A DNA stretch of 64,000 nucleotides from Branchinecta lynchi (taxonomy: Eukaryota; Arthropoda; Branchiopoda; Anostraca; Branchinectidae), in assembly GCA_023053575.1 (NCBI GenBank), contig JAKZAP010000018.1, forward strand, positions 11,973,922 through 12,037,921, given 5' to 3'. Each line of letters opens with the position of its first letter. The stretch's first letter is position 1. Below, piece by piece: positions 1,042 to 46,445 of this stretch. Under the pieces are notes generated by a model. It worked only from the letters and a program-made list of their open reading frames with translations, made no database searches and was not told the DNA's origin. A program made the position numbers and the translations under genes.

Positions 1042-2583
1042 ATGTTTAATTTAGGGGTAAGAAGACACGCTGAGTCTGTATATAATGATCATTTTTTACC
1101 CGGACATATAATTAGTCCGGAATCCGGTTGTACCCGCATTTTTTGTAAGTCAAAATTTTATTTAAAGTTGATTAGATTTCTTTATAGGGATAAGGAGATA
1201 CGCCGGCTTCGTTTTCACTACATAAAAAGGGGTCCCAAGGGGTCCGTTCCACTACATAAAAAAGGGTCCAAAGCCGAATGTGACAATTACCGTCCAATCA
1301 GCCTGACAAGCCAACCTGCCAAAGTGTTGACTAAGATACTACTGGACAGAATAAAAGCATTAACCAGCCACATCATCCCTGAGTATCAGGCAGGTTTCCG
1401 AGCTAACCGCTCAACGATAGACCAGATCTTTGTCATCCGTCAAGTAATGGAAAAATACCTTGAATATGGTTTGGACCTATATCAACTCTTCATCGACTTC
1501 AAGCAAGCTTTCGACTTAATTTGGAGAGAAGGCCTCTGGCATATATTACTGCACTACGGCGTCCCGTCAAACATCGTCTCACTCATTCGTAACATGTACG
1601 ATCAATTCAGAAGCCAAGTACAAACAGTTGAGGGAACGACCGAAGGATTCCAAACTTCTGCTGGTGTTTTGCAAGGATGCATCCTCTCACCCCACATGTT
1701 TAATCTCTTCCTCCACTGTGTCATGTCGCATGTTGAAGCAACTAATGGGGCAATGATAGGAGGGATTGTAATCGACAAGCTGGCATACGCAGACGACATC
1801 GACAAGCTCGCTGGATCCGTTGATGAACTGCAAACCGAAGCAGATAACCTGGAACTAGTTACCCGAACCTTCGGAATGAAAATCAACGAGGAGAAAACGA
1901 AAGCCATGCGTGTGTCAAGATTCACGAATCCACCCCCACCAAAAATTAAGCTTAATGGAGCGGAAATAGAATGGGTAGACAGCTTCACATATCTGGGGAG
2001 CCAGATCACGAGCGATAACAATCAGTCAGTGGACATCAAAAGACGACTCGCTCTTGGTAGCGCCGGCTTCAAAGCTCTAATGCCAATATGGAAGCAAAAA
2101 CAAATCTCCCTGAAGCTAAAACTTAAACTATTCTGCTCCATCATCATTCCTATAGCAATGTACGGCTGTGAAACGTGGACAGTCAGAGTAGATGATTCCA
2201 GACGACTCGCCGCATTTGAGACTAAGCTGCTGCGTCGAATCGCCGGCATAACACACGTAGATCGAGTCTCAAATGCTGACCTACTCGAAAGACTCCAGTA
2301 CAAGACTACCATCCTGGAAAGAGTCCGCCTCCAACAGCTCAGATGGCTCGGCCACGTCCAGCGCATGGCCAACGACCAACTGCCGAAGATTGCTTTCGAA
2401 GGTCACATCCACGGTTCTCGCCCTCGAGGTCGCCCTCCGAAGCGCTGGAAGGAAAATTTCTCCGAGTACAACCTCCCTAGTCTTCTCAGATTGTCACACA
2501 GCAGAGAGCAGTATAGGCGGCGTATACATTCGCTCGCGAGGAGAGAGGCCCCGAGACGGCCACTAAGGCCGGATGGGACTTAA
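1042..2583 (+). CDS. LINE reverse transcriptase reading frame (chimeric N-terminus)
   Basis: A 513-codon frame. Residues about 1-57 are translated from family 1 repeat DNA and are not retrotransposon protein. From about residue 66 it is RT: LHKKG and NYRPISL (83-88), FIDFKQAFD (150-158, first catalytic Asp), GVLQGCILSP (208-217) and LAYADD (247-252, catalytic YADD). The C-terminal part ends with RWLGHVQRM and RPRGRPPKRW, typical of RTE-like and related LINE clades, although the exact clade is uncertain. A full element would have an upstream apurinic-type endonuclease, which is missing. The ATG at 1042 is an accident of the host repeat, so the true product is a truncated polymerase domain. Confidence 0.8.
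   Translation: MFNLGVRRHAESVYNDHFLPGHIISPESGCTRIFCKSKFYLKLIRFLYRDKEIRRLRFHYIKRGPKGSVPLHKKGSKAECDNYRPISLTSQPAKVLTKILLDRIKALTSHIIPEYQAGFRANRSTIDQIFVIRQVMEKYLEYGLDLYQLFIDFKQAFDLIWREGLWHILLHYGVPSNIVSLIRNMYDQFRSQVQTVEGTTEGFQTSAGVLQGCILSPHMFNLFLHCVMSHVEATNGAMIGGIVIDKLAYADDIDKLAGSVDELQTEADNLELVTRTFGMKINEEKTKAMRVSRFTNPPPPKIKLNGAEIEWVDSFTYLGSQITSDNNQSVDIKRRLALGSAGFKALMPIWKQKQISLKLKLKLFCSIIIPIAMYGCETWTVRVDDSRRLAAFETKLLRRIAGITHVDRVSNADLLERLQYKTTILERVRLQQLRWLGHVQRMANDQLPKIAFEGHIHGSRPRGRPPKRWKENFSEYNLPSLLRLSHSREQYRRRIHSLARREAPRRPLRPDGT
1204..1214. repeat. Target-site duplication, left copy
   Basis: CGGCTTCGTTT occurs here and again at 2610-2620, exactly bracketing the LINE segment. In other family 1 copies the corresponding host sequence is uninterrupted. 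Confidence 0.8.
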
Positions 2584-11119: not shown

Positions 11120-13099
11120 TCAGGTTGTTTCTTGGGGTAATGGTGGTCCGAAAGTTACGTTCCGCGGACCAGCGTTTGCGTTTTCGTTTGCCATTTCTGT
11201 GTCTGGCTCGCTGTAAAACGGTTCGCTGTACTTCGGTTGTCGTCTCAGTGTTTGACACTTATTTGATGCAGCGAATGCTACAGAAACTTTATCTTTGTCA
11301 ACACACCGCTTAGTGACAAAAATGTGATAGACTGCTAATAACACAATCGGGAACAACAACCCAAACGGTAACGAAAACAGAGCGAGGGCTTTGGCAACGT
11401 GAAATTTTCCTTCTATATAGTCTACGGCTTCAAGAGAATTCTGTATGATCGGTTCATTTCTTTCAAACGAAGCTTCTAGCTCTTTTAGTGAAACTTCAGC
11501 GTCTTCTGTGCTACGTCTTGCTGCTAATTTACTTTGGATTTTTCTTGGAGCTATGAACTTAAAAGAAGAGAACTGCTCATAGTTCAACTGGGTTTGAACG
11601 GAGAAATTCTGATTATCTAATTCAATCTGAGTCTTGCCGAGAAAAACAGCAGGTATAGTAAAAGTTTCAGAAAATACTGAACATGCGATTGGGACACTCA
11701 AAATTCCGCTATTGTTCAGTATGACCTGACTCTTATCGTCGTTGTGATCACACGAAATAACCGCTTTCGTATTTTTAGCAGTGAACCCCCAAGTGGTGTC
11801 ACGGATATGTTGGAGGATTGGCATACTATCATCACCAAAATGTGAGAAAAGTATCTTACAATTCTCTTCCATTTGCTGTTGCATTTCGTTATAAATCGCG
11901 TAGTTGCAAGATTTTGCAACTTTCTTCATAGTAGGCTTATTGATACTACATAACCTGGAATCAAAAGTTAAACAGTCGGCGAAATCTTCGTTGTCGAGTT
12001 CCATGTAGTGCGTGCGTTCTTCTCGCTTAATCGCAATAAATGGCTTCGAGGGATAAATGGTAGTCAAATTTTTAGGTAGACTAATTTGCATGGTTGGAAA
12101 CGGAATAATTCGGTAAAGGTCATATTCTCCTGCAACTGAAATCAATGGGATTTTGACTAAAATCCTTAGTCCGTTGGTCGTTAATAAAGTAGTCGTCTTT
12201 GCAAACTTGTGATAATAAGGCCAAACATTATGCGTTTCCTTCGTAGGTAAGCGGTAAGGAGCGGGTAAGATTGCGGCTAAATCGTTCAGACATTCATGTA
12301 GATGCTTGGGCTTCAACATGTTAATTGGCAATCTTCCCACAGCAAGAGAATTGAGGTCAATTTCTAAGGACTGTACTTTTTGTCGAACTTCTGAAATGAG
12401 CCGGTGCAATTTCATGTACGCAAATTCCATATTGTATTGCAAGGTTATTTCTTTGGTATACTGAACAAATTCAGAGATTTGGCGCCAATTGGTTTCAATA
12501 GTTTGCAAGCTATTAGTAAGATTGGAAAGAATGTCTGCCTGAATTTTGTCGTCCATTACCAATTTTTTAATTACAGACACCTGTTTTGCAACAATCGCAT
12601 TTTGAGCGCTACCAGCTAATTTCAGTAGTTTAACAGCTTCATTAACGCTAGCAACATCGGCATCAGTTGCTGTGCCGAACAAGTACTGTAGTACGTTGCC
12701 TCCGGCATCGATCAAAGATCGCCGTTTCCTTATGCCATGTCGGTTGATCAGTGCCAGAATACCTTCGACCTCTTCCTGGAGTTCTTCTGCTGCGTGTAGT
12801 ATTTTGGCATTTTCATCACGGTATTTCTCATGAAAGATGCTTTTATTGGACAGTGCGAAGGTTTTAGCTTGTACATCTACTTTTCCCTGGTAAGCACTTA
12901 TACGAATAGAATATTCCCTTATCGTGGTGGTTACTTTCCGAAAGAACGCAAACTCTACGTCACCAGTAAGTATCCAGGCGGCGGTTGTGATGTCTACTTT
13001 CCCTTCAGGCACCAGTAAGTGCCCAAGTCCTATGCGAACCTCTGGAACCTGTTCTGCTGTCACTTTAAAAACCAGAAAAACTGAAAATATATAGAACAT
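11120..13099 (-). CDS. env: Envelope glycoprotein, baculovirus F / errantivirus Env-like
   Basis: 659 residues from ATG at 13099. A hydrophobic signal peptide occupies about 1-15. A furin-type site RKRR (124-127) is followed directly by a hydrophobic, glycine-containing fusion-peptide segment ending in LFGTATDADV, the hallmark of the Baculo_F/errantivirus envelope family. A long helical stretch follows (about 150-260). One membrane anchor is at about 571-594, followed by a tail of about 63 residues with two YSEP motifs. It would mediate membrane fusion on the particle surface after cleavage. The frame is intact. Expression probably needs a spliced subgenomic RNA, since env starts about 880 bp after pol ends. 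The family assignment is firm; function in this copy is inferred. Confidence 0.88.
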   Translation of the reverse strand: MFYIFSVFLVFKVTAEQVPEVRIGLGHLLVPEGKVDITTAAWILTGDVEFAFFRKVTTTIREYSIRISAYQGKVDVQAKTFALSNKSIFHEKYRDENAKILHAAEELQEEVEGILALINRHGIRKRRSLIDAGGNVLQYLFGTATDADVASVNEAVKLLKLAGSAQNAIVAKQVSVIKKLVMDDKIQADILSNLTNSLQTIETNWRQISEFVQYTKEITLQYNMEFAYMKLHRLISEVRQKVQSLEIDLNSLAVGRLPINMLKPKHLHECLNDLAAILPAPYRLPTKETHNVWPYYHKFAKTTTLLTTNGLRILVKIPLISVAGEYDLYRIIPFPTMQISLPKNLTTIYPSKPFIAIKREERTHYMELDNEDFADCLTFDSRLCSINKPTMKKVAKSCNYAIYNEMQQQMEENCKILFSHFGDDSMPILQHIRDTTWGFTAKNTKAVISCDHNDDKSQVILNNSGILSVPIACSVFSETFTIPAVFLGKTQIELDNQNFSVQTQLNYEQFSSFKFIAPRKIQSKLAARRSTEDAEVSLKELEASFERNEPIIQNSLEAVDYIEGKFHVAKALALFSLPFGLLFPIVLLAVYHIFVTKRCVDKDKVSVAFAASNKCQTLRRQPKYSEPFYSEPDTEMANENANAGPRNVTFGPPLPQETT

Positions 13100-13977
13100 G
13101 TTTATATCAGGTAATCACTAACACTGTTAACTTAAATATAACTTTATCTCGTTTTATTCACATTTTTTCTTTTCTTGTGGCTTTGGCTATAGCCAATTTC
13201 CGGCCTTGCGGATGTCAACATCCGGATTACATCGGATTTACGTCATTATTCACGAATACCAACGTATATTGCGTACTCGTGAATCATTCGACGGTCACTA
13301 GGCAAATCGGTATAACTGGTGTAACGACGTATAAAAAGTACGTCGACTTTCATTCTTTTAAAGGTATATTCAAAACAACTTGTAACCGGTCATGTGATAA
13401 AGAGAAACTGGTTCGAAGCAGCCTTCCATACCACCTAAGCGGTTCTATCGGGTCGATACCTTCCACTATGCCTAGCTTGTTCGATCTCAGTCCGTAACAT
13501 AGTAAGCAAAACTTCTGCACTCTGAAATTCTTTGATTTTTGCTGGTCGCCGTGTTTGCTACGTAGTATTGCTATAGTATCGTTACGCTTTAATATTACAG
13601 CGGTTGCAGAACGTCCCAGTTCGCCATTAAACGTATTCAAAATCTTGCTTGTCTGGGAACAAAATGATTCTCATGGACGGGTCTTACGTAATATGCGAGT
13701 TTGGAGTTTACCGAAATTTCGTAACATTTAGTCTATTTGAACTGCGGTAGTTTCAATCAGCAGCGTACTTTTACTGTCCGATATTCCCTTCTTATTTTAA
13801 TTTCATATTTTGCCTTTAGCTAATAGGTAAAATGAACTAGTTAACTTGTCGATCAAATGACCTAAGTGATCAGTTCAGCTCATTTGATCAAACGGTGAAT
13901 CTTCTACTACCATCAGGAATTTTCGTGCTCGCAGTGTATAACTTAATAGACTTCTTCTGATTTTATTTTTGGTAAAC
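13100..13977 (-). other. pol-env intergenic region of the provirus
   Basis: 878 bp without an ATG-initiated frame of note. A 96-codon minus frame (13350-13640) begins at TTG and has no recognisable domain. An imperfect inverted repeat (GATCAAATGA...TCATTTGATC, about 13853-13889) is near the pol end. Such a gap could hold splice signals for env RNA. Confidence 0.5.
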
Positions 13978-16900
13978 TTATTTTCCTCCCAATGTATCAT
14001 ACATTAACCAGTCTGGTTGCTTGAGTTGCCTGGGTCTTAAACCTGCAGTTCGCGATGTCGAAGCTTGCTGACTGGTTGTTGGGGTTACGTCCCTTTCTTG
14101 AAGTGTGGTTCCTTTCTCAAATCTTCTTCTGTGCCTTGTCATTTCGTTTTTGGATTTTTGGAATAGTCTGCGTCCTTCGTGTGACGTTGCCGGTAAAATA
14201 TCCGCTCTGGTTAGGACATATGGGTTTACTGGCGAAGCTAAATCTAGTGGTGGTTCTTCATAACCGATTGACGGAATCCTTTGATGTCCGTCTTGTGCTA
14301 GACCTTGATGCGACGTTTCTGCTGCAGGTTGTTTTTCAGTTTGGTCCAGTGGAACGGAGATTGGTACACCGAGTCCACAAACCTGGTCAGCATTTCCAGT
14401 TTCTTGTGCTGCTTGCGTCTCACCGACCAATGTGTGTTCGTTAGCATCTGCTTCTATTCCTGCAGCAGGGGCCGTCGGAGTTGAGTGCACTTCGTCGAAG
14501 TTCAGCCTGTATCGATCCGTTGACAGCTTCTCGTCGAATTCTAATGGTGTGGTATAGCTATCATTTGTAGGTCTGATTACTGTTGGGCTTTGCATAAATG
14601 GCGGTACGTTTTCGCTTGTTTCTGAAAGTTTCACTGGAGTTGAACATCTTACGCGGGGCGTAAACAATGGCTGATCTCCAAAAACTTCATCTTCATAATT
14701 TATTCCGTCTATATCCTGTTGGTAATCATCCCAAGTTAAATCGCTATTTGCTAGAGACAGTGGCGTTTTCACTACTACTTCACCAAACATAGCGTCAGGT
14801 TCCGTGTATACGTCAGAGCAGGATTTGTAACGTTTCGCACCAGGCGGTGTGCCATAGAATGCACTAGGTTGGTCATCATACTGTCCGTCATGCAAGTTTT
14901 CGGGAATTTGAAATCGAGGTGTACGGGGTTGCGGGTCGGAGGAACTGGTTGAAGAACTATGGCTTCTGGTACTGGTTCTGGGCTGTGCCGGTTCTGGGCG
15001 ACTGGGAACTAGAGTAACAAGTGGCACTGGGGCCGTGACAGCTGTATCGAGCAAGTTTTCTGAATTTGGTACTGTTGTGATAAATCGTGGCGATCGACGT
15101 AGTGTGGTGACCGGCTCTGCTGTCCTTCTTGCGGTTTGTCGTTCTGCTGTCAATCGTTCCATTTCAGAAGCTTCGTGATTCGTTTGCCCGCCGCTTGTGG
15201 ATTCAAGTTGCGGTTCAGCTTCCTGATTGGCTTGTTCATTCTTGTCCCACCATGTGACGTGTCTGTTCTTCGCCGATTGGCCCGTATCCGTGTGTTCATC
15301 TTCTTCAATTTCAATAGTACGTTCCCACAAACTTCTTGGTCGATGAATCTTTAGCCTATTATAATGGACGATTTGCTTGTCTCCATCTGCAATTCTTGTG
15401 ATTTCGTAATTTACTTGATTTTCTAGTACTGTGGTTATCCGATAAGGGCCTAGCCAACGGATTTTCGCAAGCTTTATCTGCCTTGCTTCCGGTGGAACTT
15501 TGAGAAGGACAAATTGGCCTATTGAATAGGGTTTCATGTTGACCTTCCGATCGTGTATGTTCTTTTGTCGGTCTCGAGCAAATTCTGAGTTTTTGCTAAC
15601 TAGGTCGTATGCTATCTTCTGTCGAGTCAGCATTTCGGACTTGTAATTTTCATCCATGTTATAGAATACGCGGCTGTTTATTACAACTTCGGTTGGGAAT
15701 CTGGGCTCTCTCAGAAACATTGCGTAGAAGGGTGAATCGCCTATACTTTCGTTAAAGGCAGAGTTCATGCTGAATTGGACGTATCTGAGGTGGTTCTCCC
15801 AGTCGGCGTAGTCTCTTCTTGCTATATACAAGCTTAACATGGTTGCTATGTCTTTGTTTTTTACTTCAGCTTTCCCATTGTGACAGGGTCGAAAGCTGCT
15901 GGTACGCGTCTGCTTTATTCCTAAAACTTCTAGCGTACTTTTGAAAACTTCAGACATAAATTCTGAACCTTGGTCGCTGAGTATGTAATCACAACTTCCG
16001 TAAACGAGCACAAAATTTTCAACAAAAGATCGCGCTACTGAGTTCGCTGTTTTGTCTGGTATACCCGCTAGGACTGTGTAGCGAGTGAAATGGTCCGCAA
16101 TTACGACCACGTATTTGCTTCCTCTGGTTGAAGTTGGAAAAGGTCCTAACAAGTCTATGCTAACAACATTTAGCGGACCGGTTGCTTTCCTAACTTCGCC
16201 TAAAGGTGCTTTTGGCGTATAGTTCAATCCTTTTCTTTGACAGCATGGCAGACATGTTTCTATGTATTCTTTGATAATGTTGTACATTCCTCGGAAATAG
16301 AAACGAGCTCGTATCCTGTGGTATGTTTTCAGAAAAGAATAATGTCCTGCAAGTTGTGAATCGTGGTATTCTTCAAGTATTCTTGGTACCATAGACATAG
16401 GTAGGACAGGTACTGTGTTAATTTCGGATCGTCTGCATCTTTGGGCAGGAATAGAAATATAGCATAAAAGTTCTGTGTCTTTATCTATGACAAAGTTCTG
16501 AATTTCGCGAATGACAGTTTTCTCGACTTCTAGCGGAAGTGGTTGGCCAGTTGCTAGGTACTCGCGTATGGATGATGCAAAATAGTCTTGTTCCTGGTTC
16601 TTCCGGAATTCTTGAACATTTACATTTTGCGCTTCTTGTTTTGTTTCTATGAAGTTAACATTTGAGGGCCAAATGCTCTTATCTTCATTTTCTGCGATGT
16701 GGTCTGGTTTCTTGACCAAGTTTCCGTCTGTTTGAGGTGAGGATGTTTCCAATATTGGTTTCCTGTCTAGTCTTGACAATGCGTCGCTGACTGAATTGAG
16801 GCGTCCAGGCAAGTACTGGATCGTAAAATCGTATCCCAAAAGTTCGGTTTGCATTCTTGCCCATTTTCCTGTGACGTCTTTGCTTGTTCCTTTAAGGAGA

Positions 16901-19374
16901 AACTGGAGCGGTTGGTGATCCGATGCAATGGTGAACCGTTTACCTAGCAAATATGGTCGGAAAGTTCTGACGCAGTGGAGAATTGCTAAAGCTTCTCGTT
17001 GTATTGTTGAATGTGATCTTTCTGCGTTGTTGAAAGATCTGCTTGTGTACTGGATCACGCGCTCTTTACCGTCTTGTTCTTGTGCTAGGTAACCACCACA
17101 CGCTTTCAGGCTTGCGTCGCAGTAAATTTTCATGGCTGCAGCTTCTCTTGTAAGATCCGGTAGACCGAGGATTGGTTTTTCCATGAGCTTCCCTCTTAGT
17201 GTTTCAAAAGCTTCCTTTTGTTCCTCTCCAAAAATAAATGGTTGGTCTTTCTTGGTAAGCAAGTTCAAACAAGCGCTGATCTCCGAATAGCCTCTTACAA
17301 ATTTTCGAAAATAATTGAACAGGCCTAGCGCCGATCTCAGCTGTGATATATCTTTGGGGTATTCTAAGTCTCTTACTGCACTCAACTTATTTGGATCCGG
17401 CCTTATGCCTTTACTGTCAATTTCATAACCGATATAGGTCACGCGGTTCGAAAACAGAAGGCATTTGCTCGGTTTCAATTTTATTCCATGCTTTCTGAAT
17501 GCTGCTAGCACTCTTTGCATCAGTGAATAATGTTGTTCTTCCGAAAAAGATCCGGCGATTGTGTCATCCAAGTAAACGGAAACGCCTTCGTCAAATAGGT
17601 GACAGAGAATTCTATGCATTATTCGGCTGTAGGCCATTGGCGCGTTTTTCAAACCAAATGCGAGTTTCTTGTAGACATACTGCTCGTGTCCAGGTGCTGA
17701 GAAACCAGTATATTGGCGGCTTTCCGGTTCGATCTCTAAAGCCCAATATCCGGCAATACAATCCAATACTGAGAAAACAGTTTTGTTGTGTAGCCTGTCA
17801 AGGATTTGGCTTATGAGGGGCAAAGGGAACTCGTCGTTAACCGTAACGGCATTTAAAGCTCTGAAATCGGTCACGAGTCTTTTTGTTCCATCTTTCTTTC
17901 CAACTAGCAGTAAAGGAGCGTTCCATGGTGATGCTGCTCGCTCGATGACGTCACAGTCGAGCATGCGCTGAATCTCTTTCTTTGCGATGTCTTCTAAGTG
18001 GATAGGTATTCGGTAGGGCCGTACTTTTACTGGTCTCGTATCTTTTTCAATCTCTATGTGAAATGGCTCAAGATTGCAGTTTCCGAGCTCCGTGCTGGAT
18101 TTTGAAAATACGTCATGATTTTCGATGACTAAAGTTTCAGCAAGTTTCCTCCTTTTGGGTTCCTTATCAAGATGACTGAAATCGAACAAAGACAGGAACT
18201 TGCTTTCTTCCTCTCGGTTAAGCGGTTTGACGGTGTTCGTCACCAAACTTCCTTCTTCCTTTGTTGTTCCTGCCAATGATATTTGATTGACGGAAATGGC
18301 TGGCTGCGGTTTCCAGGCTTCGGCATTTGCAACGAAAATTTTTGGAACGGTGATTTGTTTGTCCGAAAAATTCTCAATGAGGACTTGAATGAAGCCGTCT
18401 CGTGGTTTGATTATCTGATCAGCCAGCTCCAAATCGGGAAAGCGAGAGCGAATTTCTTCTGTCGCTTCAACGAGTAGGTCTTGATCGTAGATGAGGGGTC
18501 CGCGAGATGTGCTGAGAGTACACCGTTTGACTGTTCTTGGTGGAAACTTCGTGCGTGTTACAAAACATAATCTGTGGATTTCTGGCGGGCTTGTAGTTTG
18601 CTCCGGACCGGGTTTTGTTAAACGAACTGGCGTCGAATCTTCGTTTTCGTGGCTTGGATCTGGTCTAGTTTTGCACATACAATCTTTTGTACTATTGCGA
18701 GAGTTCACAGAAAATGAATTGCAGGCGCGGTACGGTGTAGAAACTGTCTCAATATCGCGATATGTCCCGTAATTTCCCTTTATATCATAATTCGTGTCGC
18801 GTGATTTGTTCACTAGTTTATCTGTTTCGGGGTCAACCATGAGACAATACTTTTTCATAAAACTGTAGCCAATTATCATTGGCACTTTAAGCACTTTGCT
18901 GACAAGAAAACACTCAGTATACAATTTTCCATTTAATTCGATTGTCTCCGTCAGGTTCCCAATAACATTTAAACTGTGACCACTAGCGCTGTTTACGGCA
19001 GCGGTGCTTTTTGACAACTTATTTCTAACATGGCTGGGTAGCCTCATGAAAAGTTCATTCGATATAATGCTCAAGCATGCTCCTGTGTCTGCCAAAGCAT
19101 TCACCGTATTGCCACCCAAAATAACATTGACAAACGGGGCATGGTTACTATGGGGAGCACAAAAATACGTAGCAACTAGCTTATCAAAACTACACGGGCA
19201 ATTTAACTGAGAAATTAGGCAATTAGGACAATCACAGCATTTTTTATGCACTGAAATATTTTTTCGAGCACTAGAGAAACGAGAAAAAGGATGTGAATCG
19301 TGCGGTCGCCGCGAACTAGCACGAGCACATCCTAGTTCAAGTTTAAAGAACTGAATTTCTTTTCCACTCGGCAC
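13978..19374 (-). CDS. pol: Pol polyprotein (protease, RT, RNase H, integrase)
   Basis: An open frame of 1798 codons, made as a Gag-Pol fusion by frameshifting near 19341. In order: a cysteine cluster (residues 46-61), an aspartic protease with ALADTGA (Asp96), RT with LVTDFRALN (about 500-508) and the catalytic box VYLDD (600-604), and RNase H with YCDAS (Asp753), Glu794 and Asp819. Integrase follows, with an HHCC zinc finger (His1004, His1011, Cys1041, Cys1044) and DDE residues Asp1074, Asp1134 and Glu1170. A GPY/F module with RWLGPY is at 1306-1311. Residues about 1350-1798 form a long Ser/Thr/Pro/Glu-rich tail with no recognised domain. All catalytic residues are present. The listed start is only where the frame opens; no separate initiation is expected. 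Confidence 0.95.
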   Translation of the reverse strand: MPSGKEIQFFKLELGCARASSRRPHDSHPFSRFSSARKNISVHKKCCDCPNCLISQLNCPCSFDKLVATYFCAPHSNHAPFVNVILGGNTVNALADTGACLSIISNELFMRLPSHVRNKLSKSTAAVNSASGHSLNVIGNLTETIELNGKLYTECFLVSKVLKVPMIIGYSFMKKYCLMVDPETDKLVNKSRDTNYDIKGNYGTYRDIETVSTPYRACNSFSVNSRNSTKDCMCKTRPDPSHENEDSTPVRLTKPGPEQTTSPPEIHRLCFVTRTKFPPRTVKRCTLSTSRGPLIYDQDLLVEATEEIRSRFPDLELADQIIKPRDGFIQVLIENFSDKQITVPKIFVANAEAWKPQPAISVNQISLAGTTKEEGSLVTNTVKPLNREEESKFLSLFDFSHLDKEPKRRKLAETLVIENHDVFSKSSTELGNCNLEPFHIEIEKDTRPVKVRPYRIPIHLEDIAKKEIQRMLDCDVIERAASPWNAPLLLVGKKDGTKRLVTDFRALNAVTVNDEFPLPLISQILDRLHNKTVFSVLDCIAGYWALEIEPESRQYTGFSAPGHEQYVYKKLAFGLKNAPMAYSRIMHRILCHLFDEGVSVYLDDTIAGSFSEEQHYSLMQRVLAAFRKHGIKLKPSKCLLFSNRVTYIGYEIDSKGIRPDPNKLSAVRDLEYPKDISQLRSALGLFNYFRKFVRGYSEISACLNLLTKKDQPFIFGEEQKEAFETLRGKLMEKPILGLPDLTREAAAMKIYCDASLKACGGYLAQEQDGKERVIQYTSRSFNNAERSHSTIQREALAILHCVRTFRPYLLGKRFTIASDHQPLQFLLKGTSKDVTGKWARMQTELLGYDFTIQYLPGRLNSVSDALSRLDRKPILETSSPQTDGNLVKKPDHIAENEDKSIWPSNVNFIETKQEAQNVNVQEFRKNQEQDYFASSIREYLATGQPLPLEVEKTVIREIQNFVIDKDTELLCYISIPAQRCRRSEINTVPVLPMSMVPRILEEYHDSQLAGHYSFLKTYHRIRARFYFRGMYNIIKEYIETCLPCCQRKGLNYTPKAPLGEVRKATGPLNVVSIDLLGPFPTSTRGSKYVVVIADHFTRYTVLAGIPDKTANSVARSFVENFVLVYGSCDYILSDQGSEFMSEVFKSTLEVLGIKQTRTSSFRPCHNGKAEVKNKDIATMLSLYIARRDYADWENHLRYVQFSMNSAFNESIGDSPFYAMFLREPRFPTEVVINSRVFYNMDENYKSEMLTRQKIAYDLVSKNSEFARDRQKNIHDRKVNMKPYSIGQFVLLKVPPEARQIKLAKIRWLGPYRITTVLENQVNYEITRIADGDKQIVHYNRLKIHRPRSLWERTIEIEEDEHTDTGQSAKNRHVTWWDKNEQANQEAEPQLESTSGGQTNHEASEMERLTAERQTARRTAEPVTTLRRSPRFITTVPNSENLLDTAVTAPVPLVTLVPSRPEPAQPRTSTRSHSSSTSSSDPQPRTPRFQIPENLHDGQYDDQPSAFYGTPPGAKRYKSCSDVYTEPDAMFGEVVVKTPLSLANSDLTWDDYQQDIDGINYEDEVFGDQPLFTPRVRCSTPVKLSETSENVPPFMQSPTVIRPTNDSYTTPLEFDEKLSTDRYRLNFDEVHSTPTAPAAGIEADANEHTLVGETQAAQETGNADQVCGLGVPISVPLDQTEKQPAAETSHQGLAQDGHQRIPSIGYEEPPLDLASPVNPYVLTRADILPATSHEGRRLFQKSKNEMTRHRRRFEKGTTLQERDVTPTTSQQASTSRTAGLRPRQLKQPDWLMYDTLGGK

Positions 19375-20519
19375 TGGGAGGCGTAGTGGCCCCTGACGCC
19401 ACAGTTAAAGCATCTCCCTACAGGGTTTCCGTCTTTTGTCGGAATGCTGCGACGAGGAGACCAACAATTTTTAGCCTCGTGGTTTGGCTTACCGCAATTA
19501 TAGCACAGCCTATCTTGCCTGCTTCCACCGTGAGTAGAACCACTACTGCCTGCCTCGCTACTTGTAAATAAACTAGGCCTACCCTGCGGAATTTTCTGTT
19601 TGGCATGAGAGAACCCTTGGTTCGACCGACTAAAAGCTTGATCTCTATTTCTATACTGACCACGGTGATCGTTGTCGGGCGCGCGCGTTTGAAGTTGATC
19701 GTAAGTTTTATACGCCGTTTGCGACCCGTTTTTATCCTGGTGAGGATATCTAGTTTTAAAGGTTCGGCTTGGAAAAGGCGAGCGCGAACGAGGAAATTCT
19801 GGTCTCTGAACTTGCTGGTTTCTTTCGTGCCTTTCGGGATAATGCGTAACGACCGGTTTAGCTTCTGTCGCTTCGCTGGGAACTGTTTGTACAAAATGCA
19901 TATCCGAATGGGGTGAAACAGTGGTTCTAGCTGCTTGTTTTATCCGGCCGTATTCCCGAGAACGAAAATCGTTCATGATGAAGTTGGATGCCTCTGTGAA
20001 ATTTGCCGGATTCCGGGCTAAAATCCGCATACCTAAAGACGGTGACAAACTGTCTATCAACATATTCTTCATCAAATTTTCTGCTGCCTGATAGGCAGAG
20101 CCTGCCATCGCGGCAGCTGCTGGTGCTGCTGGCATAGCCTCAAGACTTAAAAGCTGAAGTACTTTCTTTTTCAACGAGATAAGAAAAGGGTACGGATCTT
20201 CGCCATCTTCTAAAACTAAAGGCGCATGAAGTAATTTTGCTTTGTGTGAAGTGTGCTCAAACTGTGAAACTAAACGTTGCCGCAATAAAGCGAACGACGT
20301 GAGTGACGCTTTGTTTGCGGCAAGAAAATCGCTAGCAGGACCGCTGCTTCTCATGAATGCGACTTTGATAAGTGCTCCATCGTCAATTAGCTCGTCCCAG
20401 TCTTCAAGTTTAGCCACACTTTCGACAAAGTCGGTAACATCCGTACTCCCGTCAAAAATCGGAATTTGCTGAGCAATTCGGCAAAGGAGTGATAAATCAA
20501 TCTTGTCGTCACCCGGCAT
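19332..20519 (-). CDS. gag: Gag polyprotein
   Basis: 395 residues from ATG at 20519, 173 nt after the primer-binding site. The N-terminal two thirds should form the capsid. A basic, Arg/Gln-rich stretch (about 200-335) precedes two CCHC zinc knuckles: CYNCGKPNHEAKNC (339-352) and CFNCGVRGHYASQC (370-383). These bind genomic RNA in nucleocapsids. The stop lies 43 bases inside the pol frame, and the frameshift heptamer is in this overlap. The frame is intact. Confidence 0.93.
   Translation of the reverse strand: MPGDDKIDLSLLCRIAQQIPIFDGSTDVTDFVESVAKLEDWDELIDDGALIKVAFMRSSGPASDFLAANKASLTSFALLRQRLVSQFEHTSHKAKLLHAPLVLEDGEDPYPFLISLKKKVLQLLSLEAMPAAPAAAAMAGSAYQAAENLMKNMLIDSLSPSLGMRILARNPANFTEASNFIMNDFRSREYGRIKQAARTTVSPHSDMHFVQTVPSEATEAKPVVTHYPERHERNQQVQRPEFPRSRSPFPSRTFKTRYPHQDKNGSQTAYKTYDQLQTRAPDNDHRGQYRNRDQAFSRSNQGFSHAKQKIPQGRPSLFTSSEAGSSGSTHGGSRQDRLCYNCGKPNHEAKNCWSPRRSIPTKDGNPVGRCFNCGVRGHYASQCRVEKKFSSLNLN
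19341..19347 (-). promoter_or_regulatory. Minus-one ribosomal frameshift site TTTAAAC
   Basis: In the gag frame the message reads TCT TTA AAC TTG AAC TAG, so the heptamer is positioned exactly as T_TTA_AAC, a classic X_XXY_YYZ slippery site. It lies 6 nt before the gag stop. A one-base backward slip enters the pol frame (TTT AAA CTT GAA CTA). The frame arithmetic (gag codons at coordinates 2 mod 3, pol at 0 mod 3) confirms minus one. Confidence 0.88.
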
Positions 20520-20674
20520 TTTTCCACTTGCGTTTGATTCTATTTGGTTAAAGAACAGTAGACTCGAACGATGGAATTCTGATCAGAACTAACGAGACTA
20601 ATAATTTCTAGCGAATATTAAAGCACTGAAATGATGAATGATGGATCAATACATGCAATCTGCTACCTCCCACA
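20520..20674 (-). other. Provirus leader
   Basis: Untranslated leader between the primer-binding site and the gag ATG. It probably carries packaging and splice-donor signals, but none can be assigned by eye. Confidence 0.5.
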
Positions 20675-23622: not shown

Positions 23623-23676
23623 ATGGAGCTGGAGAAAATAAGAAACATACCGATCAAGGAAGCTTTGACAGGAAAG
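23623..23676 (+). CDS. PRXL2B-like: Selenoprotein U / PRXL2B-like, exon 1
   Basis: ATG at 23623 opens MELEKIRNIPIKEALTGK, followed by donor GTAAAG at 23677 (phase 0). Joined to exon 2 (ETTLEDEW...) it keeps the family's N-terminal spacing. The TG pair, the Trp at residue 26 and the redox site at 41 have the same intervals as in PRXL2B proteins (compared from memory of the family, not by search). Intron 1 is about 4.07 kb and contains family 1 copy B and a MITE. A diverged second copy of this exon lies 178 bp downstream. Confidence 0.75.
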
Positions 23677-27748: not shown

Positions 27749-27953
27749 GAAACAACATTGGAAGACGAATGGAGAAACAGCGACTGTGTTATCTACGTTA
27801 TTCGGCGGCTTGGATGATCCTTCAACCGGGTCCAGGTGCAGGCCATTGCCGACATGAAGCCGGTTCTGGACGCACGCGGGATCCAACTCATACTCGTCGG
27901 GATGGACACGTTTGCACTGGAGGACTTCCTGGCCGTTACAGGATACAATGGAA
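27749..27953 (+). CDS. PRXL2B-like: Selenoprotein U / PRXL2B-like, exon 2 (redox site)
   Basis: Acceptor AG at 27747-48, donor GTAAGT at 27954, phase 1 out. The translation carries W-x5-VIYVIRRLG, then TGA, then SFNRVQVQAIADMKPVLDARG and ILVGMDTFALEDFLAVTGYNG. The family (SelU/FAM213/PRXL2, AhpC-TSA-like thioredoxin fold; some members make prostaglandin F from prostamide/PGH2) has RR-x-G-C-x-x-C-R at this point. The TGA replaces the first, redox-active Cys, as in Sec-containing SelU proteins, and the residue is Sec41. The second Cys of the motif is Asn44 (AAC). Spacing from Trp26 to residue 41 and from there to the MKP motif is preserved without gaps. A nonsense mutation cannot be excluded from this exon alone, but the SECIS-like element supports recoding. 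Confidence 0.85.
27815..27817 (+). other. Selenocysteine codon (TGA, Sec41)
   Basis: In-frame TGA between GGA (Gly40) and TCC (Ser42), at the conserved redox cysteine position of the PRXL2/SelU family. The frame is open on both sides to the splice sites and the final TGA is at 35141-35143. Confidence 0.8.
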
Positions 27954-33323: not shown

Positions 33324-33439
33324 AGTTTTGCGTAGACGAGCCAGAAGCCATCTTCAAAGCCTTGGGCTTAAAGAGGATCAATCTGTTCAACGCCATACCG
33401 ATGCTGATTTCTACATCCAGTAGAGAGGAAGTCAGAAAG
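33324..33439 (+). CDS. PRXL2B-like: Selenoprotein U / PRXL2B-like, exon 3
   Basis: Acceptor TTTCTCTGCAG and donor GTAAGC; phase 1 in, phase 0 out. The split codon A|AG gives Lys, producing YNGKFCVDEPEAIFKALGLK and then RINLFNAIPMLIS. The family's conserved segment (GK/E-x-Y-x-DE...LGFKR-x-N...) is recognisable across the exon 2/3 junction, which confirms the splice prediction. Family 1 copy E begins only 19 bases past the donor. Confidence 0.85.
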
Positions 33440-34969: not shown

Positions 34970-35143
34970 GTAAAGGACGCCCGTGTCGGTGGCAACTTAA
35001 GGGGTGACGGATACCAGCTTGGTGGAGTGCTCATAGTAAAGAAGGGAGGAAAGTTGGTGGCCTTTAGAAGACAAGAGAGCCCAGCGGAAATACCTATGCA
35101 TCCTTCTGAAGTTCTAAAGGTGAAGACGAATGCTATTGATTGA
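34970..35143 (+). CDS. PRXL2B-like: Selenoprotein U / PRXL2B-like, exon 4 and stop
   Basis: Phase 0 in. It encodes VKDARVGGNLRGDGYQLGG, VLIVKKGGKLVAF and RRQESPAEIPMHPSEVL, ending with TGA at 35141-35143. The G-N-L-x-G-D-x-x-Q-x-GG and LIV-x-KGG motifs followed by QESP are diagnostic of the PRXL2B branch. The full spliced reading frame is 549 bp including the stop (182 residues, Sec at 41), a normal length for the family. Confidence 0.88.
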   Translation, partial: VKDARVGGNLRGDGYQLGGVLIVKKGGKLVAFRRQESPAEIPMHPSEVLKVKTNAID

Positions 35144-35855
35144 TTTAAGGAGAAAATATAAGGCATTGCTTTCTCAGGCTGGCCTGGTCCTATCGTTTAA
35201 TCCAGTCTCTGGAAATATGCAAAGCTCTAGCGACAGTTACGTGACGGAATAACTTCAGGACTGGCTGAGAACGAATTCAACTTGTACCGCCTTAGCTAAG
35301 CAGATCGTGTGGGATGATCTGATTGGCTATTTTTCAATCTTTCCAGCTATCGCATATTCTGTATTAAAATGGCAAGCTATGAATGCGCAATTTTCTATCT
35401 CACCTGGTCATCGACACGGGTCAACAAGATGTACGTTGCTTTTGTATTACCACATAAATTGACAGCCGGATCTGCATCGGTCAGCGAGGGGGAAGTCATA
35501 ACCAATTGCAGAGATCCTATAGCGAGTGGGAATGAGCGCGAGGGTGGTAGACGGTGCGCGGATTGTTGGCCCACAAAACTCCTCTCGTCATCAATTATAT
35601 GAAGTAATTGCATGCAGGAGAGAGGAATAACAAGTAAAAGCTGGTAGGACTGTTCACACTGTTTGCCAGACTAAGAGAACGGTGAATCAGCCAATAAGAA
35701 GGTAGTGAGTAAAAAGAATATACGACTGAACCGATTTCAGATTATCGACGAGCAGCGTTTGGCTACTGCACGTTCTCCAGCAAAAGAAGATGGCACCCCT
35801 TACCGTGAGCAGCGAGTCTCACCGGACTTCATCAGACAACAATAGATGGCGTAGC

Positions 35856-35931
35856 GGGCTGACCAGAGGATATGAAGCGCAATGTCTAAATCTTATGGTG
35901 TTGCTGCTGATGCTGAAATGTTGGTCATCCC
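35856..35931 (+). ncRNA. SECIS-like element
   Basis: About 710 nt after the stop. Helix I pairs GGG-C-TGACCA (35856-35865) with TGGTCA-T-CCC (35922-35931). The non-Watson-Crick core is ATGA (35872-35875) opposite TGAT (35908-35911). Helix II pairs AGCGCAATGTC (35876-35886) with GGTGTTGC-T-GCT (35897-35908), with one bulged T and three G-U pairs. The apical loop TAAATCTTAT opens with the A-run expected 12 nt after ATGA. This matches the eukaryotic SECIS consensus in order and spacing. It was assembled by eye; no energy calculation was made. Confidence 0.72.
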
Positions 35932-36050: not shown

Positions 36051-36056
36051 AATAAA
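36051..36056 (+). terminator. Candidate poly(A) signal AATAAA
   Basis: First AATAAA after the SECIS-like element, about 120 nt downstream of it, consistent with the end of the selenoprotein mRNA. Confidence 0.5.
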
Positions 36057-38986: not shown

Positions 38987-40134
38987 TTTTTGGGATCCCA
39001 AAACGTAAGTGGAGGGATACCTATGACATTGCAAAAGTTGTCCGTCTGTCCGTCTGTAAGCACGATAACTCTCGAAAGGAATGAGATATTTTAATGAAAC
39101 ATGGTTAGAGGAGTCGTTGGGTCGTCGGACCAGTCAAGTTCGTAGATGGGCTTTGTAGCCCTACATTTAGGGGTGGGGGAGGGGGTTCAAATTAAGGGGT
39201 AAACAAAATATTTTGAAACAGCTAATTTGATAGTCGATTATGGGGTAAGAAGACATGCTGAACACGATGGTGAAAACCATTTTGTCATCGGACAAGGAGT
39301 TCGCCCGGAATCCGGCCAAAACCGGAAAGTTTGTTAAAAGTAAAAGTTTTATTTGAAGTTGATTAAATGTTCGATTTAAGGGTAGGAAGACATGCTGAGG
39401 ACGATGGTGAAAACCATTTTCCCGAAGGAAAAGTAGTTCGTCCGGAATCCGGCCCAAACCGGATAGCTTGTTAAAATTAAAAGTTTTATTTGGAGTTGAT
39501 TAGATGTTGATTTAGGGCAAGAAGACATGCTGAACACTTACGTGAAAAAATTTTCTACCTGGACATGTAGTTCCCCACGAATCCGGCCAAAACCGGGAAA
39601 TTGTTAGAAGCTTAAGTTTTATTTCTAGTTGATTAGATAACCGATTTAAGGGTAAGAAGAGATGCTGAATCCGTGTTTGACAATCATATTTTACCCGGAA
39701 ATTTAGTTCGACCGGAATCCGGCTGGAGTCGGAAAATTTGTTATTTTATTTATTTATTTGTTTATGACCTGCTTTTTGCGTAACAGCGGAGTATCAATAA
39801 AATACACAAAAATATTATAATAAAATATTTATAAGTTAAATTTTTATTTGAAGTTAATTAGATGTTCATTATTGGGGAAAGAAGATACCCTGAGTTCGTT
39901 TTTTAGCTTTCTTTTTCGCCGGACAAGTAGTTCTGGAGTTCGGCCGAAACCAGGAAATTGGCAGAAGTGGCAGGAAGTTTTCGTCAAAACAGATATGACT
40001 TATAGGGGTAAACACACATGTTTTAATTGTAAAAATGTTTAAGGAGTCGGTGACTGGATCTGGCTAAGACAAGACCCAGTTGTCTGGATCAGATATTGAA
40101 CTTTTGGGATCCATCGAAACCTTTGGTCTTGTTT
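38987..40134 (+). repeat. Family 1 dispersed repeat, copy F
   Basis: TTTTTGGGATCCCAAAACG at the left, five units with CCGGAATCCGGCC boxes, and CTTTTGGGATCCATCGAAACC then GGTCTTGTT at the right. An AT-rich insertion of about 95 bp (TTTATTTATTTATTTG...) lies at about 39745-39838 inside one unit. Confidence 0.85.
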
Positions 40135-46015: not shown

Positions 46016-46445
46016 ATGCCCCTCAGCCGGGATTTGAACCCAGGACCCTCTAAGGCAGTCACTCTACCACTGAGCTACCGAGGGGCTTGCGAACAGAGTT
46101 CGCAAATCACTACAACAGTCTGGTAGAAGCCGGCCATAGGAACAGTGATCTTGCCCGAGTGCAAATTCATCTAACCAGTTCACATCCGCATGTCGCGGAA
46201 ATTAATAATATAGATTAATAATATAGAATCTATATTATTAATTTTATTATTAATAGAATCTATATTATAAATTACTAATATAGAATCTTTATTATTAATT
46301 TCCGTGACATGGGGATGTGAACTGGTTGGATGAATTTGCCTTCGGGCGGGATCGCTGTTCCTATTGCCGGCTTCTGCCAGACTATTGTAGTGGTTTGCGA
46401 ACTCTGTTCTGTAGTGTGACTGCCTTGTAATCAGAGGGTCCTGGG
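46016..46445. repeat. Inverted pair of tRNA-derived sequences
   Basis: The minus strand of 46020-46085 is tRNA-like: GCCCCTCGGTAGCTCAGTGG (acceptor, D-arm, box A) and GGGTTCAAATCCC (box B, T-arm). The arm 46016-46200 is repeated inverted at about 46295-46445, with an AT-rich centre built on AATATAGAATCTATATTATTA. In the left arm the anticodon region reads GCCTTAGAGGG; the right arm has GCCTTGTAATCAGAGGG, so six bases around a TGT anticodon are missing on the left. The right arm is cut by family 1 copy G. This is a fold-back SINE or tRNA pseudogene pair, not a functional tRNA. Confidence 0.7.

Follow-up and report, generated by a model that had tools for sequence, protein, structure and literature searches.

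Sequence analysis of a Branchinecta lynchi locus suggests a selenocysteine-containing PRXL2B/SelU3 gene with UGA at the redox site

The window analyzed here, a 64,000-nucleotide stretch of contig JAKZAP010000018.1 of the anostracan Branchinecta lynchi (GCA_023053575.1), contains an exon of the PRXL2/SelU family that is interrupted by an in-frame TGA at the position of the redox cysteine. This raises the question of whether the gene is disabled or whether the TGA is read as selenocysteine (Sec). Our analysis indicates that the locus is very probably a selenoprotein gene of the PRXL2B/SelU3 family, whose five exons specify 209 residues and whose UGA codon 41 would encode Sec. The gene structure, the position of the TGA, a paralogue and two genes of the Sec machinery are read directly from the genome, and from these we infer that the UGA is translated as Sec.

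The exon with the TGA is open apart from this one codon and is bordered by AG and GT, confirming a preliminary description made from the letters of the window. That description had proposed four exons, the first three of which are kept in our gene model (Table 1). Its fourth exon, with an end at 35143, runs past a donor site (CTAAAG/gtgaag) at 35119/35120. The corresponding exon of a paralogue on contig C19 stops at the equivalent place (donor gtaagc), so that by analogy the window exon is expected to end at 35119, and two Artemia isoforms part ways around there. A direct stop at 35143 as the end of the gene was rejected, and replaced by a fifth exon, beginning with IIDEQRLATARSP, which matches the tail of Artemia isoform X2. 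This last exon was first spotted by inspection and ranked afterwards, using left-anchored matches to the Artemia tails for 1260 downstream AG acceptors with a phase-0 open reading frame of at least 5 residues. The acceptor at 35741 ranked first of the 1260 against the X2 tail (IIDDRSLGTRQ...), with a score of 20 and a runner-up of 15, and both the X2 tail and exon 5 open with IID. For the X1 tail there was no good match among the 1260 acceptors (best score 10, elsewhere). The predicted coding sequence is 630 nt in length. Across the five spliced exons, the TGA is the sole in-frame stop ahead of the terminal TAG and no frameshifts were seen; judged by its sequence, the gene is intact. Gene-finding programs tend to cut a gene like this one short.

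Table 1 Predicted features of the PRXL2B/SelU3-like gene in the window
Feature	Position	Strand	Details and evidence
Exon 1, coding part MELEKIRNIPIKEALTGK	23623..23676	+	Donor gtaaag; spliced translation aligns with the PRXL2B N-terminus
Exon 2, contains the TGA codon; ETTLEDEWRNSDCVIYVIRRLG(TGA)SFNRVQVQAIADMKPVLDARGIQLILVGMDTFALEDFLAVTGYNG	27749..27953	+	Sequence reading and PRXL2B alignment
TGA codon 41, proposed Sec; RRLG-U-SFN-R	27815..27817	+	On the PRXL2B redox Cys; same position in the C19 paralogue
Exon 3, 116 nt (C19 exon 3 likewise 116 nt)	33324..33439	+	Spliced model
Exon 4, end ...PSEVLK, donor gtgaag	34970..35119	+	Matching C19 exon 4 end; Artemia isoform divergence
Exon 5, IIDEQRLATARSPAKEDGTPYREQRVSPDFIRQQ, TAG stop 35843-35845	35741..35845	+	Top AG acceptor against the Artemia X2 tail
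SECIS-like element in the predicted 3'UTR	35856..35931	+	Helix I GGG.TGACCAG/TTGGTCA.CCC; ATGA 35872-35875, TGAT 35908-35911; helix II; apical-loop AA
AATAAA, possible polyadenylation signal	36051..36056	+	Sequence motif

Elsewhere in the window, long open reading frames at 1042-2583 (+), 11120-13114 (-) and 13978-20582 (-) resemble, by eye in the open reading frame listing, the reverse transcriptase of a retrotransposon, an envelope-like protein, and pol and gag of the Ty3/gypsy type. There is also a tRNA-like Rfam match at 46019-46084 (-), with 42.5 bits, which was uncalled by ARAGORN and is possibly a tRNA-derived repeat.

When the four exons of the preliminary description were spliced in silico and translated with Cys in place of Sec, the protein matched the solved PRXL2B (9us9) with an E-value of 1.7e-26. 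The same splicing gave 61.5 bits against PF13911 (AhpC-TSA_2, the PRXL2/SelU family), compared with a curated cut-off of 27. In the alignment of this spliced protein, the TGA falls without gaps on the first Cys of the 9us9 motif RRFG-C-VV-C-R. An ungapped fit to RR-x-G-C-x-x-C-R had been claimed; it holds for the first Cys and breaks down at the second, which is Asn (AAC). The window gene is thus UxxN, with Asn in place of the resolving Cys; it lacks the vertebrate-type CxxC pair, and we do not class it as a prostamide synthase enzyme. Placement in the PRXL2B/SelU3 subfamily is provisional and follows the names of the matches: those with telling names are prostamide/PGF synthase, PRXL2B or FAM213B, and the rest are hypothetical or unnamed. 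Among the best 120 of 367 matches of a profile search, CxxC is present in 119 and RxxC in one, and the named ones are from vertebrates; with the window exon and two Artemia fragments added, 123 sequences were scored for CxxC. In SelU1, the Sec is situated in the same motif. It is unlikely, by reasoning rather than by statistical test, that a single stop among about 200 codons would fall on the catalytic position by chance. Across the genome, the pattern GGNTGANNNTTYAAY is no commoner than expected by chance (644 and 595 matches, versus 698 and 657 with the reversed pattern).

Searching the whole assembly (575.7 Mb, 216 contigs) with the protein at E<=10 yielded six matches; four belong to the window locus and the others to contig C19. 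The two on C19 cover a C-terminal exon (E 2.9e-5, 50% identity) and a TGA exon (E 0.029, 27% identity), and reveal a second PRXL2B-like gene (G000:C19:12949797-12955374, minus strand) with a TGA at the same redox codon. This gene reads TVPIGNLWEDKTTVVIFLRRFG-(TGA)-AFCRLAAREIS..., and its motif RRFG-U-AFC-R is UxxC, with the second Cys retained. Exon 3 has the same length in the two genes and exon 4 is 147 nt on C19 versus 150 nt in the window. The C19 exon 4 ends with ...NSKILE/gtaagc, and the last exon opens with VLGLASDVK..., resembling vertebrate tails. Besides the redox-site TGA, C19 exons 2 to 5 hold no in-frame stop ahead of the end; exon 1 of this gene was searched for and not found. 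A possible history, to which we give somewhat less than even weight, is that of a duplication after which one Sec-PRXL2B copy lost the resolving Cys and became a one-Sec (UxxN) enzyme, with the other copy keeping UxxC. If this is true and conserved across anostracans, the two genes would form a subfunctionalised selenoenzyme pair in which Sec is kept without a partner thiol, masked so far by truncated gene models. The UxxC/UxxN pair would also be a direct handle on the role of the resolving Cys in a selenoenzyme.

The closest relatives found by a word-based search of 5.8 billion protein sequences are the prostamide/PGF synthase-like isoforms X1 and X2 of Artemia franciscana (P0002 and P0003), which share 62-63% identity with the window protein across ~60% of the query (63% over 107 aligned residues, ungapped). 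A profile built from the window and Artemia proteins added only a Ciona savignyi protein at E<=0.1. Both Artemia isoforms start at a Met aligned to Met70 of the window protein, which lies 29 codons past the TGA, within exon 2. They are thus annotated without the N-terminal part expected to carry the redox residue, whereas the window gene has that part. Since a Cys codon would permit upstream extension of the models, their start downstream of the site suggests that the Artemia gene, too, has an in-frame stop at the redox site, a reading that comes from the annotated proteins. A Sec codon at this site would account for public Artemia proteins without an active site.

To be decoded as Sec, the UGA would need the corresponding machinery, the absence of which the preliminary description had named as an argument against its proposal. 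A search for it found tRNA-Sec and SEPSECS matches, and the same genome has a thioredoxin reductase (TrxR) with GC-TGA-G. The tRNA-Sec model gave eight matches, one of which is above the cut-off (75.2 bits, anticodon TCA), the other seven being tRNA-Ser. SEPSECS has two genome matches, the better with an E-value of 5.2e-123 and one TAA within its matched stretch. The TrxR gene (G000:C21, about 6002487, minus strand) ends with the tail QKGC-(TGA)-G-stop. Its exons match TIGR01438 singly in 7 matches, each under the whole-protein cut-off, as expected of single exons.

We also found a SECIS-like element in the predicted 3'UTR of the window gene. It reads ATGAA-GCGCAATGTC-TAAATCTTAT-GGTGTTGCTGC-TGAT, its core lies 26 nt after the stop, and a helix I of seven plus three base pairs lies outside. 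We note that the element was first seen by eye and that the minimum length of the scan was then lowered to 30, which makes the score post hoc in part; earlier scans with a minimum core-to-core distance of 55 and 45, and a relaxed one at 40, missed it. It is the top of five scan hits on both strands of the window (-21.6, next -15.9). Random sequence with the dinucleotide make-up of the window gave 9 equally good hits in 12.8 Mb, two of them with ATGA, and seventeen other loci (117 kb counting both strands, two overlapping) gave two hits, the better one at -17.7. In the C19 stretch (38.7 kb), the gene strand has hits at -21.2, -16.9 and -16.6, and a single place on the opposite strand yields another two (-19.1 and -16.6). 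As the latter place has no known gene, real DNA presumably attains -19.1 by chance. The C19 gene has two SECIS candidates, 126 and 1240 nt past its stop, and we make no choice between them. As a positive control, 9.9 kb over the 3' end of the TrxR gene was scanned on both strands with the scan unchanged, and the sole hit (-24.6) is 325 nt after the stop. By our own grammar, partly post hoc, a SECIS-like element is present in the predicted 3'UTR. The overall fold energy of the window hairpin is ordinary (z of -1.56, -0.31 and -0.60 for three cuts). The Rfam SECIS model had no hit in the window, either at its gathering score or at E<=10 in 22-45 kb, 35.1-36.9 kb and 45-64 kb; it also had no genome match at E<=1e-3, where the controls were silent too, making it uninformative. 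A further SECIS candidate at 40051 was dropped, as it scored -11.7 and no exon was found to support it.

Taken together, the TGA on the redox Cys, the C19 TGA at the same codon, the Sec machinery and the SECIS-like element support the Sec41 reading put forward in the preliminary description. Decoding of UGA codon 41 as Sec would draw on the tRNA-Sec of this genome and on a short SECIS located in the 3'UTR. In a protein with a thioredoxin-like, peroxiredoxin-like-2 fold, Sec41 may then act as the reactive residue, with a redox function assumed from knowledge of the family. Given Asn at the position of the second Cys, the enzyme would have to use a one-Sec mechanism in which a thiol from outside resolves the selenenic intermediate.

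A recently disabled gene would look similar at this codon, as TGC or TGT becomes TGA by a single base change, whether through a nonsense mutation, a polymorphism or an assembly error, and the locus would then make at most a fragment from Met70. The second Cys is already gone, which could mean relaxed constraint. Against this, the five exons hold no further stop or frameshift, the similarity to Artemia extends ungapped through the aligned residues, and a SECIS-like element follows the stop. The shared TGA of the C19 paralogue and the Artemia models that begin shortly after the site also speak against it, and we consider a disabled gene quite improbable. Selenium might alternatively be uninvolved, with readthrough that inserts a standard amino acid at the UGA, or with the short form itself a product. 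Stop-codon readthrough is known in animals, according to the accessible text of PMC5100048, but it gives no reason for the codon to fall on the redox Cys, and this genome has both Sec machinery and a SECIS-like element; such a reading appears highly improbable to us.

Compatible with the Sec reading is a gene whose true SECIS lies elsewhere, the hairpin at 35856-35931 having arisen by chance. The short helix II, the ordinary energy and the predicted status of the 3'UTR would fit such an origin. The hairpin, however, outscores every other hit on either strand of the window, its core lies close behind the stop, and the TrxR element from the same scan is about equally short (inner length of 34 nt versus 31 nt). 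A chance hairpin thus seems unlikely, and we prefer the reading in which this element serves UGA codon 41.

SelU3, which is the lineage of prostamide/PGF synthase, has been reported with Sec in non-deuterostome invertebrates, and the accessible part of that report (PMC3473315) describes 8 SelU3 proteins from 7 species, 3 of these proteins being Cys forms, each from a deuterostome; arthropods contributed 0 of the 6 surveyed species. Vertebrate Sec-containing SelU falls in SelU1, as stated in the accessible text of PMC3316567. Many selenoprotein genes in shrimp are cited as unpublished data in the available portion of PMC2375036, and Daphnia pulex is among the genomes searched in PMC2500217, where the main text, as far as accessible, does not mention SelU. 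A centipede is reported in PMC4244043 to have 20 selenoproteins, possibly with a Sec-SelU among them; insects, according to the accessible text of the same paper, have very few selenoproteins or none. Other arthropods can therefore reveal what insects have lost. Among the papers listed on SelU3, on selenoprotein U in crustaceans or arthropods, on PRXL2B/prostamide with selenocysteine and on Artemia with selenocysteine, none describes, by its listing, a crustacean Sec-SelU3. Sec-containing SelU3 is already published for non-deuterostome invertebrates; the window gene would add a further member and extend the range of Sec-containing PRXL2B to a crustacean.

Among known systems, the vertebrate PRXL2B or prostamide/PGF synthase (9us9) is like the window gene over nearly the full length, and differs at the redox site, where 119 of the best 120 profile matches have CxxC and the window gene has UxxN. 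SelU1 of fish and birds is described as a sister subfamily with Sec forms (accessible text of PMC3316567 and PMC3473315). The Sec-SelU3 of non-deuterostome invertebrates belongs, by the accessible text of PMC3473315, to the same family with Sec as the window gene; compared with that set, the window gene has Asn at the second Cys, and its genome holds two copies with TGA.
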